A DNA stretch of 35,067 nt from a candidate division CPR3 bacterium GWF2_35_18 (GTDB lineage: Bacteria; Patescibacteriota; CPR3; GWF2-35-18), in the NCBI GenBank assembly GCA_001771135.1, contig MESW01000003.1, positions 200,719 through 235,785 on the forward strand. Reading direction: 5' to 3'. Shown piece after piece: positions 13,698-20,121 of the stretch. The notes below the pieces were generated by a model. It searched no databases. It had not been told where the DNA came from and worked only from the letters and a program-made list of their open reading frames with translations. The translations under genes and the position numbers were made by a program. Numbering within the stretch: the first letter of the stretch is position 1; each line of letters opens with the position of its first letter.

Positions 13698-15533
13698 TTA
13701 ATTCAATGGAGCTACTCCGTAATATACAAATAGATCTTTGGCAATATCCATCCATAAAGGAACAGCCGTCTCGGCTGAATAGGTAGACGCTGTCGGACGA
13801 GTTAATTTTACTATCATCAAAAACTCCGGATCAGCGGCTGGAGCGAACCCAATAAAAGTACAGTTAGTTTGTCTTGTATCATATATACCGTTAACCGCAA
13901 TCTGAGCTGTACCGGTTTTTCCGGCGATTTTGTATCCTGGTAAAACGGCAAATTTAAATTCTCCTTTTTCAACAACAGAAACCAACATATCAACTATTTT
14001 TTTTGCTGTTTCCGGAGAAATAACCTGCTTTTCAGATGGTGAAGTGAATTCAATACTCGCATCAGTGGTTTTAATCTTCTCTACAATATAGGGAGTTACC
14101 ATCTTGCCATTATTAATAAAAGCTGTGTAGGATTGCATCATCTGTAAAGGAGTTACTGAAATTCCTTGCCCAAAAGCGGCAGTTGCCAAATCAACGCTCA
14201 TCCAATCATCCAGATCTTTGATCCATGAAGTATCTTCATCCTCAAGATTGATTCCGGTAATTTTACCCAGACCATAATCTAAAATATAATTGTAGAAAGG
14301 TTCCAAGGTAATTGCTTCTGAAACTCTAGCCATACCGGTATTATCAGAATGTTGTAATATTTCGGCTGGAGTTGATAGTCCAAAATATTTGTTATTCCAA
14401 GTTGAAATAGTGTACCCAGATATAGGATAAGGTGCACTTTCAATTTTGGTGTCTTCAGTAATCTTCCCTGTTTCCAAAGCAATACTCATGGTAATTGGTT
14501 TAAATATTGAACCTGGCTCATAAACGTCAGCAACTGCTAAATTGGGAAATAATTTCTTTCCATATTTTTTTGCTAGTTTTTCTTTATCAGTCAGTTCTTC
14601 ATCTTTCTTATCAGAATAGTCTTTTAAATAATCTTGCCAGGTTGCTGGATTATAATTTGGATAAGAAGCCATCGCCAGTATTTTTCCGGTTTGAGGATCC
14701 ATAATGATAACCGTTCCATCTCGAGCATCATATTTTTTTACCCCAGCTTCCAGTTTTTTCTCAATTAAATACTGTAGCTGTCTATTTATAGTAAGAACGA
14801 TATCGCGGCCATCATCAGATCCAACCGGAAGATAATTTCCAAGAGGTATTGGACGCCCTAAAGCATCTTTTTCCAGTGCTATTCTTCCGGCAATTCCTTT
14901 CAATTCTCCGTTATAAAAACCTTCAATTCCATAATATCCCTGATCTTCACCACGATCATTTTTCCCCACAAAACCCAAAACATGAGAAGCCATTTCGCCT
15001 TCAGGATAAGACCTTTTATAATCTTTTTCAAAATAGATTCCTTTAAGATTTGCTTCTTCAATTTTTGACTTTGTTGATTCATCCTGTTTATACGCAAGAG
15101 GCATATAAAGAAGATCTTTCTGAGACAACAGATCTTTCATTTCATCAACATGCTGTTTTTTCTCTTCATCAAGTTTTTCTTTTAATTGTTCTTCATCCAA
15201 GTCCTCTTTTTTTATCGTACTTTCATAACCAATGATTTCAATTAGTTTACTCGCGGTATCATCAATATTCTCTACTTCACGGGGAACAGCAAAAACAAGA
15301 TAAGCAGGAACATTTGTGGCCAAGGGAAATCCGTCGGAAGATAAAATTTCTCCTCGCTTAGCTGGAATCTCTTTTCCAATCCAATGCTGCTTTTCTGCTA
15401 AGGCAATATAACGCCCATGCGCTTCAACTTGTATGAAATAAAGTTTTCCAATTAGGATAAAAAAAAGAACAATAAAAGAATATTTAAGGAGTGACGACCG
15501 TAAAGACTGGGAATGATTGTTGCTATGAATCAT
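13698..15533 (-). CDS. ftsI: FtsI/penicillin-binding protein 2 family transpeptidase
   Basis: N-terminal TM, PBP dimerisation region, SxxK (GSIFKPIT), SDN, KTGTAQ motifs. Confidence 0.94.
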   Translation of the reverse strand: MIHSNNHSQSLRSSLLKYSFIVLFFILIGKLYFIQVEAHGRYIALAEKQHWIGKEIPAKRGEILSSDGFPLATNVPAYLVFAVPREVENIDDTASKLIEIIGYESTIKKEDLDEEQLKEKLDEEKKQHVDEMKDLLSQKDLLYMPLAYKQDESTKSKIEEANLKGIYFEKDYKRSYPEGEMASHVLGFVGKNDRGEDQGYYGIEGFYNGELKGIAGRIALEKDALGRPIPLGNYLPVGSDDGRDIVLTINRQLQYLIEKKLEAGVKKYDARDGTVIIMDPQTGKILAMASYPNYNPATWQDYLKDYSDKKDEELTDKEKLAKKYGKKLFPNLAVADVYEPGSIFKPITMSIALETGKITEDTKIESAPYPISGYTISTWNNKYFGLSTPAEILQHSDNTGMARVSEAITLEPFYNYILDYGLGKITGINLEDEDTSWIKDLDDWMSVDLATAAFGQGISVTPLQMMQSYTAFINNGKMVTPYIVEKIKTTDASIEFTSPSEKQVISPETAKKIVDMLVSVVEKGEFKFAVLPGYKIAGKTGTAQIAVNGIYDTRQTNCTFIGFAPAADPEFLMIVKLTRPTASTYSAETAVPLWMDIAKDLFVYYGVAPLN

Positions 15534-15590
15534 AAGGTAACATAATTTATGTAGATAAAACTAAGGGGACAAGTTTTTACTATCTTTGAA

Positions 15591-15944
15591 TTACTTCAAA
15601 CTAGCAACTGCTTGATCTGAAATATAAACAACATTCTTGTCGATTTTTTTCATCGAAAGATTTTCTTGACACTCTTTTTCGATTCGAGATAAAGCTGAAA
15701 GTTCTGAGATTTGATTTTCCAAAACTGTTTTTTCATGCATTAAGGAGTTTTGTTCTTCATCTAGTTTTACAAGTTCTGCTCCTTTAACGCCAAAAATATT
15801 ACTCAGTAAAACTTGGGCGGAAATCATGATCACGGTTAAGGCTAGTAATCCTTTTGGGAGGTCAAAAAAAACGGTACTTTTTTTATTCAATTCTTGATGC
15901 ATTAATTTGCGTCGCATTAATGAATCACTAACCTTTTTGATCAT
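15591..15944 (-). CDS. ftsL: FtsL-like septum protein
   Basis: Short single-TM plus coiled-coil ORF between rsmH and ftsI, matching the dcw position; assigned mainly by synteny. Confidence 0.65.
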   Translation of the reverse strand: MIKKVSDSLMRRKLMHQELNKKSTVFFDLPKGLLALTVIMISAQVLLSNIFGVKGAELVKLDEEQNSLMHEKTVLENQISELSALSRIEKECQENLSMKKIDKNVVYISDQAVASLK

Positions 15945-15982
15945 CGTTTATCTCCTGTTAAATTTTCTAATAACTTTGTAAC

Positions 15983-16846
15983 TTAATTTTTCTCTGCTAC
16001 TCTTAACTTCGCGGACCGTGCTCGAGGATTTTCTGCTAATTCTGAAGGAGACGCTTCTACTGGCTTTTTCGTTATTATTTTTAAACTATCTGTTTCTTTA
16101 AAAAACTCCTTCACGATTCTATCTTCAAGAGAGTGAAAACTTATGATGGCAAGTCGTCCGTTTTTTTCTAAAAGATCACAGGCTATGGGTAGTACTTCTT
16201 TTAAAGCGTTCAGTTCATCATTTACGGCAATTCGAAAGGCTTGAAATACTTTTGTGGCCGGATTTTTTTTGCTCTTCCCATAATATTTTTGTTGATAAAC
16301 GCCTTCGATTATTTTGGCTAAATCCGCCGTCGACTTAATTTCTTTTATTCCACGGGCGCGAATAAGAGAAATTCCAATGTCGCGTGCACAACCTTCTTCG
16401 CCCAATCGGCTAAGTAAATCATAAAATTCTCCTTTATTTAAAACTTTTATTAAATCCGAAGCCGTAACCTTTAGACTCTTATCCATTCGCATATCTAAAG
16501 GCTCATTTTTTGTGAACGAAAAACCTCTTCCGGAACAATCTATCTGCCAAGATGACATTCCTAAATCTAGAAGTATCCCACTAACTTTTTCTATCCCATT
16601 TCTTTTTGCAATCTCTTTGAGATTGCGAAAGTTATCAGAAACCAATATTAAATTATCAAAGTGAGAAAATAATCCTTTAGCTAAACTTATGCTTTCTTCA
16701 TCTACGTCAATCCCCAGAACTTTTCCATCTCTTTCAATGATTTTCCGAGAGTGACCCCCAAATCCAAAAGTGCAATCAATATACTGTTTTCCTTTTTGGA
16801 CCTTTAATAAATCGATTGTTTCTTTCAATAAAACCGGTTTATGCAT
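15983..16846 (-). CDS. rsmH: 16S rRNA (cytosine1402-N4)-methyltransferase
   Basis: MHKPVLLKETIDLL, YIDCTFGFGGHSRKI, GILLDLGMSSWQID, GFSF, PLDMRM, ISFHSLEDRIVKEFF. Confidence 0.96.
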   Translation of the reverse strand: MHKPVLLKETIDLLKVQKGKQYIDCTFGFGGHSRKIIERDGKVLGIDVDEESISLAKGLFSHFDNLILVSDNFRNLKEIAKRNGIEKVSGILLDLGMSSWQIDCSGRGFSFTKNEPLDMRMDKSLKVTASDLIKVLNKGEFYDLLSRLGEEGCARDIGISLIRARGIKEIKSTADLAKIIEGVYQQKYYGKSKKNPATKVFQAFRIAVNDELNALKEVLPIACDLLEKNGRLAIISFHSLEDRIVKEFFKETDSLKIITKKPVEASPSELAENPRARSAKLRVAEKN

Positions 16847-16880
16847 GTAGTTAAATTCAAAATTTTACTATTATTTAAAA

Positions 16881-17057
16881 TATCGGCGGATTGGATTTGA
16901 TCAAATTCTTCGCATCAATCAGAAAACTAAACATTATATTTGTTTAGTAATCCAATCAAGCAAAAGCCGCTTGCCCAAGGGACAGTGATCCAATCCGCCA
17001 ATAATTTCCCCCCAAAAAGCGGAGGAGGACAAGAAGACCTAGTAATAGGACTCACTG
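16881..17057 (-). other. Unexplained structured element between mraZ and rsmH (inverted repeats with alternative pairings; contains a TATAAT box)
   Basis: Perfect 12-bp arms GGCGGATTGGAT (16885-16896)/ATCCAATCCGCC (16988-16999); internal AATCCAATC (16949-16957); CTAAACA/TGTTTAG (16927-16933/16941-16947); GGACTCACTG (17048-17057) complementary to CAGTGATCC (16983-16991) apart from one bulge. Confidence 0.6.
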
Positions 17058-17104
17058 CTTACACAGAATACCCTAAAACCAAGTCGATCTATCTAACAAA
17101 GTTG

Positions 17105-17130
17105 AAAAAATTGCCAGCAAAAGCAATTTT
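17105..17130 (-). terminator. Rho-independent terminator after mraZ
   Basis: Minus strand AAAATTGC-ttttgctg-GCAATTTTTT: 8-bp stem plus T run, about 10 nt past the mraZ stop. Confidence 0.7.
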
Positions 17131-17139
17131 GAGGATTTT

Positions 17140-17571
17140 TTATAAATTAACAGAGGCTAATTTTTCAGCGATTTCGCTGCTATTCTGAGAAAGGTATTCT
17201 TTTCGTTTTTGCCATTTTGAAGAATCCCAAATTTCTACCCATCGTCCCAAACCTAAAAAGATAACTTCACTTTTTAGTGAGGCATAGGTAACCAAATTTT
17301 GCGGCATTACGAATCTGCCTTGTTTGTCTAGCTCCACTTCAGTTGCTCCACCAAGCAAAAAACGAGTAGTGTCGCGAACTGAGGAAGATACAAAAGGACC
17401 AGAAGCAGCTTCTTTAGTGAGGCTTTCCCATTGTTCTGGGGAAACCATAATTAAACAACCTTCATAACCGTGGGTAACAATCAATTTATTACCTAAACTT
17501 TCCCGAAATTTTTTCGGAACAGCGACGCGGTTTTTCTCTCCTAAGTTGTTTTTAAATTCACCAATTAGCAT
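17140..17571 (-). CDS. mraZ: Transcriptional regulator MraZ
   Basis: MLIGEFKNNLGEKNRVAVPKKFRESLG and a second AbrB-like repeat ATEVELDKQGRFVMPQNLV; adjacent to rsmH. Confidence 0.95.
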   Translation of the reverse strand: MLIGEFKNNLGEKNRVAVPKKFRESLGNKLIVTHGYEGCLIMVSPEQWESLTKEAASGPFVSSSVRDTTRFLLGGATEVELDKQGRFVMPQNLVTYASLKSEVIFLGLGRWVEIWDSSKWQKRKEYLSQNSSEIAEKLASVNL

Positions 17572-19726: not shown

Positions 19727-19755
19727 TTTTTCCTCCGTTAATACTAATTACTGAA

Positions 19756-19840
19756 CTACCGCGGACTAAAGTCCGTAGTATCTCTTACTTAGAGCAAGTT
19801 CGTTCACTTGGTTTCATCCACCCCGCCAAAGGCGGGGTGG
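19756..19840 (-). repeat. Cluster of three palindromes (REP/MITE-like) in the glyS leader
   Basis: CCACCCCGCC-AAA-GGCGGGGTGG (19818-19840), CAAGT-N6-ACTTG (19795-19810), CTAC-CGC-GGACT-AA-AGTCC-GTAG (19756-19778). Confidence 0.6.
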
Positions 19841-19856
19841 TATTCACTAAGATGAA

Positions 19857-20080
19857 TAAAAAAATCCCTCACAGCTTACTCAAAAATAAGTAAACCGTAG
19901 GGATTCCAATGTGGAACGATTCCACCCTACTTCTCCAGAAATATTACTGGAACTCTTAATTTCTTTTTTTTCAACTCTCAAGACGCCATTCTAGTCATTT
20001 TCTTTGCGAAACTTTCACCCTCATCTTCGCTCTCTAGAAAAAGAAAATTAACTAAAAATTCTCGATCATCGTTGAAAATA
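19857..20080 (-). promoter_or_regulatory. T-box riboswitch, glycine-specific (glyS leader)
   Basis: Minus strand: T-box AGGGTGGAATCG (19928-19917); antiterminator closing TAGGG/CCCTA; Stem I with AGAGAG and GGTGAAAG; specifier region AGAATGGCGTCTTGAGAG with GGC (19987-19985); Stem III TCCAG/CTGGA; terminator AATCCCT...AGGGATTTTTTT (19905-19857). Confidence 0.9.
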
Positions 20081-20091
20081 TTATTGTTTTA

Positions 20092-20121
20092 GGTATACCA
20101 AAATAACTAAGTATTTGTCAA
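20092..20121 (-). promoter_or_regulatory. Promoter of the T-box/glyS unit
   Basis: TTGACA (20121-20116)-N18-TATACC (20097-20092) with extended -10 TGG; immediately after the SpoIIM-like stop codon. Confidence 0.65.

Follow-up and report, generated by a model that had tools for sequence, protein, structure and literature searches.

T-box riboswitches (RF00230) sense uncharged tRNA and are best known in Firmicutes. Among the described systems, the glyQS T-box of Bacillus, Geobacillus and Oceanobacillus (RF00230, class I) provides a close comparison to the element studied here: both contain a GGC specifier, a UGGA bulge, a terminator switch, a long Stem I, a K-turn and a double T-loop end, and in both Stem II and the IIA/B pseudoknot are absent. 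Unlike glyQS, the present element would control a single-chain GlyRS in what is very probably a CPR genome, its bulge reads AUC for ACC and its S-turn strand appears non-canonical. In Staphylococcus aureus, a glycine T-box reportedly precedes the single-chain GlyRS gene glyS (Apostolidi 2015, cited in PMC7583486), and our element differs from it in phylum and in detailed structure. Deinococcus radiodurans also carries a glycine T-box outside Firmicutes, although it belongs to another phylum than our host and has two T-boxes in its genome against ten (PMC2494555). A 2008 survey found T-boxes in Firmicutes, Actinobacteria, Chloroflexi, Deinococcus/Thermus and two Proteobacteria (PMC2494555). The likeness to the class II, translational ileS T-boxes of Actinobacteria, which holds for other leaders described below, fails for the glyS element because its Stem I is long.

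In the open-access literature, we found no paper describing a T-box in CPR, Patescibacteria, Parcubacteria, Microgenomates or Saccharibacteria, and the main text of the TBDB paper does not mention CPR; entries for CPR T-boxes may already exist in Rfam or TBDB. Since synthetase genes preceded by a glycine T-box are already on record (Deinococcus, S. aureus glyS), the pairing with glyS is not new in itself, and the interest of the element lies in its location, in a regulon of ten members and in the evidence for common T-boxes in Patescibacteria.

The window, the whole stretch of 35,067 nt analysed here, carries the leader on its minus strand, with a SpoIIM-like gene (20718-20122) on one side and glyS on the other (Table 1). 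A sequence-only reading of this DNA had proposed a glycine T-box here, and the RF00230 covariance model matched the leader as that reading expected, with an E-value of 8.0e-14 when the whole genome was searched. The score is below the Rfam gathering score of 93 bits, which is a curation threshold and no biological feature, so a default Rfam scan misses this T-box; indeed, scanning the window at the gathering threshold returned zero matches, the leader included. Five control genomes matched RF00230, two of them above the gathering score and three solely below it. Window matches to the Rfam families HgcC, STnc480 and Vg1-ribozyme were dismissed as chance.

Table 1 Features of the glyS locus (window coordinates) and positions of the other T-boxes of the host genome (G000).
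Feature	Position	Strand	Basis or remark
Putative promoter	20092..20121	-	TTGACA 20121-20116, 18 nt, TATACC 20097-20092; 10/12 consensus positions
RF00230 T-box leader	20078-19896	-	covariance-model match, model positions 1-219, 63.5 bits, E 1.5e-13
Stem I	19968..20078	-	RF00230 alignment; free fold -26 kcal/mol
Stem I base, 8 bp, UUUUCAAC/GUUGAAAA	20078-20071 with 19975-19968	-	RF00230 alignment
K-turn, GAUGA opposite GAG	20070-20066	-	RF00230 alignment, sequence level only
Distal T-loops (interdigitated double T-loop motif)	20013..20035	-	alignment and published consensus
T-loop strings	AGAGA 20035-20031; UGAAA 20017-20013	-	RF00230 alignment, sequence level only
Specifier GGC (Gly), inside AGAATGGCGTCTTGAGAG	19985..19987	-	alignment and fold; pairs with anticodon GCC
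Stem III, UUCCAG/CUGGAG	19933..19952	-	fold -6.9 kcal/mol and RF00230 alignment
T-box sequence AGGGTGGAATCG	starts 19928	-	read base by base
Antiterminator	19897..19930	-	RF00230 alignment and fold -12.7 kcal/mol
A1 helix, GUAGGG/CCCUAC	within 19897..19930	-	antiterminator fold
7-nt bulge UGGAAUC	19924-19918	-	antiterminator fold
A2 helix, GUUCCA/UGGAAU, loop CAU	within 19897..19930	-	antiterminator fold
Intrinsic terminator and U7 run	19858..19907	-	hairpin 19907-19861, -25.1 kcal/mol; U7 19864-19858
GC-rich perfect hairpin CCACCCCGCC-UUU-GGCGGGGUGG	19818..19840	-	glyS 5' UTR, after terminator
Shine-Dalgarno GGAGG of glyS	19736-19732	-	sequence reading
glyS, single-chain (alpha2-type) glycine--tRNA ligase, 464 aa	18332..19726	-	profile matches
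Other nine T-boxes (loci L117-L124)	G000 C8:110116, C7:14330, C3:181062, C8:121274, C6:79826, C6:78514, C3:288219, C7:62011, C5:10520		

The leader folds with a minimum free energy of -67.5 kcal/mol against -47.8 +/- 4.2 kcal/mol for 200 dinucleotide shuffles (z -4.7), and was more stable than all 200 of them. A simple terminator or attenuator separating the spoIIM-like gene from glyS, resembling a T-box by chance, would on its own stop transcription arriving from upstream, and the weak prediction of a promoter would suit it. However, the full-length match at E 1.5e-13, the nine other T-boxes of this genome, whose targets fit, and the way specifier and bulge follow tRNA identity across the phylum make this explanation highly improbable. 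The promoter named by the sequence-only reading was retained in part: TTGACA-18-TATACC is present and lies immediately after the upstream gene, but the -10 hexamer matches at only 4/6 positions and a promoter scanner rejected it because the -10 lacks its final T.

The following elements of a T-box leader were found: K-turn, Stem I, GGC specifier, Stem III, bulge, antiterminator and competing terminator. The RF00230 alignment and the free fold agree in presenting the GGC triplet, as had been supposed, in a Stem I internal loop, and UGGCG is left unpaired there when the fold is unconstrained. Running ARAGORN on the tRNA loci gave tRNA-Gly anticodons GCC, UCC and CCC, all with an encoded UCCA end. 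The predicted tRNA-Gly(GCC) is thus encoded in the genome and fits the specifier, and the bulge UGGA is complementary to the UCCA end. The family match, the presented GGC and the tRNA-Gly were the three points on which the sequence-only reading had staked itself, and all three were found. Within the specifier loop, the 3' side of the S-turn (GAA) is present and AGUA reads UUUA in the RF00230 alignment, so the 5' strand of the S-turn appears non-canonical at the sequence level.

The same reading had described the distal part of Stem I as short. This proved incorrect, since the distal end has its full length and both T-loops; the published consensus of the double T-loop is AGAGA with UGxRA (PMC7583486). 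Its description of a compact variant holds for the compactness but not for the cause, which is an absent Stem II rather than a shortened distal Stem I: about 40 model positions covering Stem II and the IIA/B pseudoknot are absent from the RF00230 alignment of the leader. Glycine T-boxes naturally lack Stem II, and their GGC pairs with GCC (PMC7583486); therefore, the compactness of the glyS leader corresponds to the normal glycine form.

Stem III, the T-box sequence, the antiterminator and the terminator with U7 had also been proposed, and each was located on the minus strand; structure prediction gave a stable leader with an open specifier loop and with antiterminator and terminator hairpins. 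The sequence CCCUAC at 19902-19897, the 3' arm of A1, is common to the antiterminator and the 5' arm of the terminator, so the two hairpins exclude each other. The terminator with its U7 run ends about 120 nt before the Shine-Dalgarno of glyS, and no sequestered Shine-Dalgarno replacing the terminator, as in translational (class II) T-boxes, was seen in the leader.

We read this leader as a transcription-attenuating glycine T-box riboswitch for glyS, with a probability of about 0.92; its tRNA binding and antitermination we infer from the known mechanism. The GGC specifier of Stem I would read tRNA-Gly(GCC), and the two distal T-loops would contact the tRNA elbow. When tRNA-Gly is uncharged, its UCCA end would pair with the bulge UGGA and hold the antiterminator, allowing RNA polymerase to read into glyS; when it is charged with glycine, the end would be kept out, the stronger terminator would form and transcription would stop. 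Support comes from a genome of the same order (G001), in which a T-box with a UGGA bulge stands before the gene for a GlyRS that shares 63% identity with the glyS product.

Judged by its sequence, the leader resembles an ordinary glycine T-box apart from two minor peculiarities. As had been noticed before, the T-box letters are unusual: the bulge carries AUC where ACC is conserved, one mismatch to UGGNACC, and AUC occurs in one other T-box of our set (L021, before ileS). In the OFF fold, the bulge can pair with the 5' strand of A2, GUGGAA-UCG-UUCCAC (GUGGAAUCGUUCCAC), at -5 kcal/mol; we found no description of such a pairing in the literature, and in this model it could weaken tRNA capture. 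The AUC, the atypical S-turn strand and this pairing would also be expected of a decayed T-box, whose descent is still visible but whose terminator is no longer opened by tRNA, leaving glyS fixed low or under constitutive readthrough. Nevertheless, every base-paired element is intact, the terminator is strong, the specifier and bulge still fit the tRNA-Gly of the genome, and the AUC bulge recurs before ileS of another genome, which leaves decay an unlikely explanation beside a working glycine T-box.

The single-chain GlyRS assigned by the sequence-only reading was borne out, the 464-aa product matching the NCBIfam profile NF003211 (PRK04173) with 642 bits and TIGR00389 with 513 bits. In the 5' UTR, the CCACCCCGCC-UUU-GGCGGGGUGG hairpin may lie outside the switch proper; its core has one other copy in the genome (G000 C2:65401-65417). 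A second hairpin, ACUACGGACUUUAGUCCGCGGUAGU, lies between the terminator and the glyS Shine-Dalgarno (window 19755-19779, minus strand). Just downstream of glyS, a division/cell-wall cluster occupies window 13698-17571 on the minus strand, with mraZ first (17571-17140) and a PBP2/FtsI-type transpeptidase at 15533-13698.

The host genome (1.136 Mb) is 97% complete and 1% contaminated. The gene for ribosomal protein L30 was absent from it and present in 13 of 14 control genomes; absence of L30 is a known mark of CPR. The best named relatives of the GlyRS belong to Curtissbacteria and other CPR (50-59% identity). The host is very probably a member of Patescibacteria/CPR as judged from sequence, and the small genome (1.14 Mb), the missing L30 and the GlyRS relatives all agree with the placement proposed earlier. 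Because Firmicutes are the best-known T-box group, one might suspect a foreign contig or element, through Firmicute contamination or recent transfer. We give this very little weight: the closest named GlyRS relatives are CPR, completeness is high and contamination low, L30 is absent, 128 of the 384 phylum genomes searched have T-boxes, and the enzyme is unlike the two-chain GlyQS of Bacillus.

RF00230 matched at ten places in the host genome, one of them above the gathering score. The nine further T-boxes lie mostly before synthetase genes and concern Tyr, Arg, Ile, Thr, Trp, Val, Ser, Pro and Asp. Because we knew each target gene when picking its specifier by eye, the specifiers count as support and not as proof. 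On this basis, a long Stem I is seen in the leaders for Gly (GGC, glyS), Tyr (UAC, a 396-aa ORF then tyrS), Arg (CGA, GNAT and an argH-type lyase), Thr (ACC, thrS) and Pro (CCC, proS). An apical-loop specifier is seen for Ile (AUC, ileS), Asp (GAC, aspS) and Ser (UCC, a HAD phosphatase and serS), and probably for Val (GUC, valS) and Trp (UGG, an MBL protein and trpS), the Trp loop AGAAUGGG being common to two other trpS leaders. In nine of the ten leaders, the bulge carries the base that suits the discriminator of the matching tRNA; the exception is Asp, where bulge U faces G73 as a G-U wobble. The aspS T-box (L124, G000 C5:10520-10719) has the bulge UGGU, whereas the other tabulated CPR Asp T-boxes have UGGC (5/5); the AspRS of this locus carries a C-terminal tRNA-editing domain. 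The 396-aa protein encoded first after the Tyr T-box and before tyrS (L117:815-2005, minus strand) has no Pfam family.

For the phylum, 384 genomes were drawn evenly, all but one sharing only the phylum with the host, and a T-box was called at RF00230 E <= 1e-3. T-boxes were found in 128 of them, a lower bound for that sample owing to the strict search filters; only 13 of these 128 pass the Rfam gathering score, so the default cut-off hides nearly all CPR T-boxes. In a separate set of 38 CPR genomes chosen solely because their GlyRS resembles the glyS product, four had T-boxes, which indicates that the frequency varies by lineage. Detailed analysis covered 113 phylum T-boxes with neighbouring DNA. 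Of these 113, 71 have an A1 helix whose five base pairs are all Watson-Crick (arms shuffled among sequences: mean 14.5, maximum 28). Among 57 T-boxes in which the bulge base was compared with the target amino acid, the two agreed in 55 (mean 24, maximum 35 after shuffling), with expected bases taken from the tRNAs of the host genome. Terminators of <= -8 kcal/mol follow 95 of the 113 T-boxes, compared with 14 of 112 control positions; a stricter criterion gave 43 of 113, and the finder behind the figure of 95 misses terminators starting inside the T-box, such as those of the host Ile, Val and Asp leaders. The main targets are synthetases for Ile, Val, Asp, Thr, Gly, Pro, Tyr, Trp, Lys, Leu, His and Arg, joined by biosynthetic genes such as trpE, trpD, trpB, argG, argH, proB and a cysteine-synthase homologue. 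This sequence evidence indicates that T-boxes are common in Patescibacteria, often compact and hidden by default thresholds.

Transcriptional T-boxes generally require a long Stem I, and an ultrashort Stem I without the elbow motif is tied to translational T-boxes (PMC7583486, PMC7778990). The host Ile, Asp and Ser T-boxes and many of their CPR relatives resemble the actinobacterial ileS type in having an apical-loop specifier, a short Stem I, a retained Stem II and no distal double T-loop; unlike that type, the CPR leaders close with a terminator and its U-run and so look transcriptional. Among 49 leaders with <150 nt before the T-box, 36 had a terminator and only 13 a double-T-loop-like string. 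The apical-loop specifier matched the gene in 12 of 31 (expected 4.7, shuffled maximum 11), several Ile cases among the 12 being one family and not independent. Examples are the Ile hairpins CCAG-CUAUCA-CUGG and AGGAG-CAAUCA-CUCCU and the Asp hairpin GCGG-UCGACA-CCGC.

Some glycine leaders appear smaller still. At L032, L251 and the L051 tandem pair, glyS leaders have a GGC hairpin and Stem II is not evident. L051 (Patescibacteria group bacterium CRAIB_MAG31) has two minimal glycine T-boxes, about 290 and 140 nt upstream of glyS, each with its own GGC hairpin and its own terminator-like U-run. Scanning the 384 genomes for a minimal glycine T-box pattern (TTGGCAA, gap, GGTGGAAC) returned mostly chance matches inside genes; the only recognisable leaders, in G046 and G269, were already known.

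We lean, by a small margin over even odds, towards a widespread, lineage-adapted T-box system in Patescibacteria that would include terminating T-boxes with an ultrashort Stem I as well as a few minimal glycine T-boxes. On this joint reading of the sequences, the former would hold the specifier in a hairpin loop without a tRNA-elbow motif, and the latter, with neither the elbow motif nor an evident Stem II, would keep the codon-anticodon and acceptor-end contacts alone. If true, the long-Stem-I rule for transcriptional T-boxes would fail in Patescibacteria. These compact and minimal leaders belong to other loci; the glyS element of the window has a long Stem I.

Most CPR bacteria are believed to rely on a host for their amino acids. 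With a T-box regulon, such cells would be able to sense each amino acid through tRNA charging, without a protein, and a CPR branch beside those of Firmicutes, Actinobacteria, Chloroflexi and Deinococcus would bear on the age of T-boxes relative to the split of these groups. Gene regulation in CPR bacteria is almost unknown (PMC11665869).

Outside CPR, the genomes to which GlyRS similarity led (Ignavibacteria, KSB1, Zixibacteria, Bacteroidia, Nitrospirota and others) had no T-box, except for seven of the Spirochaetia genomes searched. The 2008 survey had reported none in Spirochaetes (PMC2494555); the Spirochaetia/Sphaerochaeta genomes of L106, L108, L109, L110, L114, L115 and L116 contain one T-box each.
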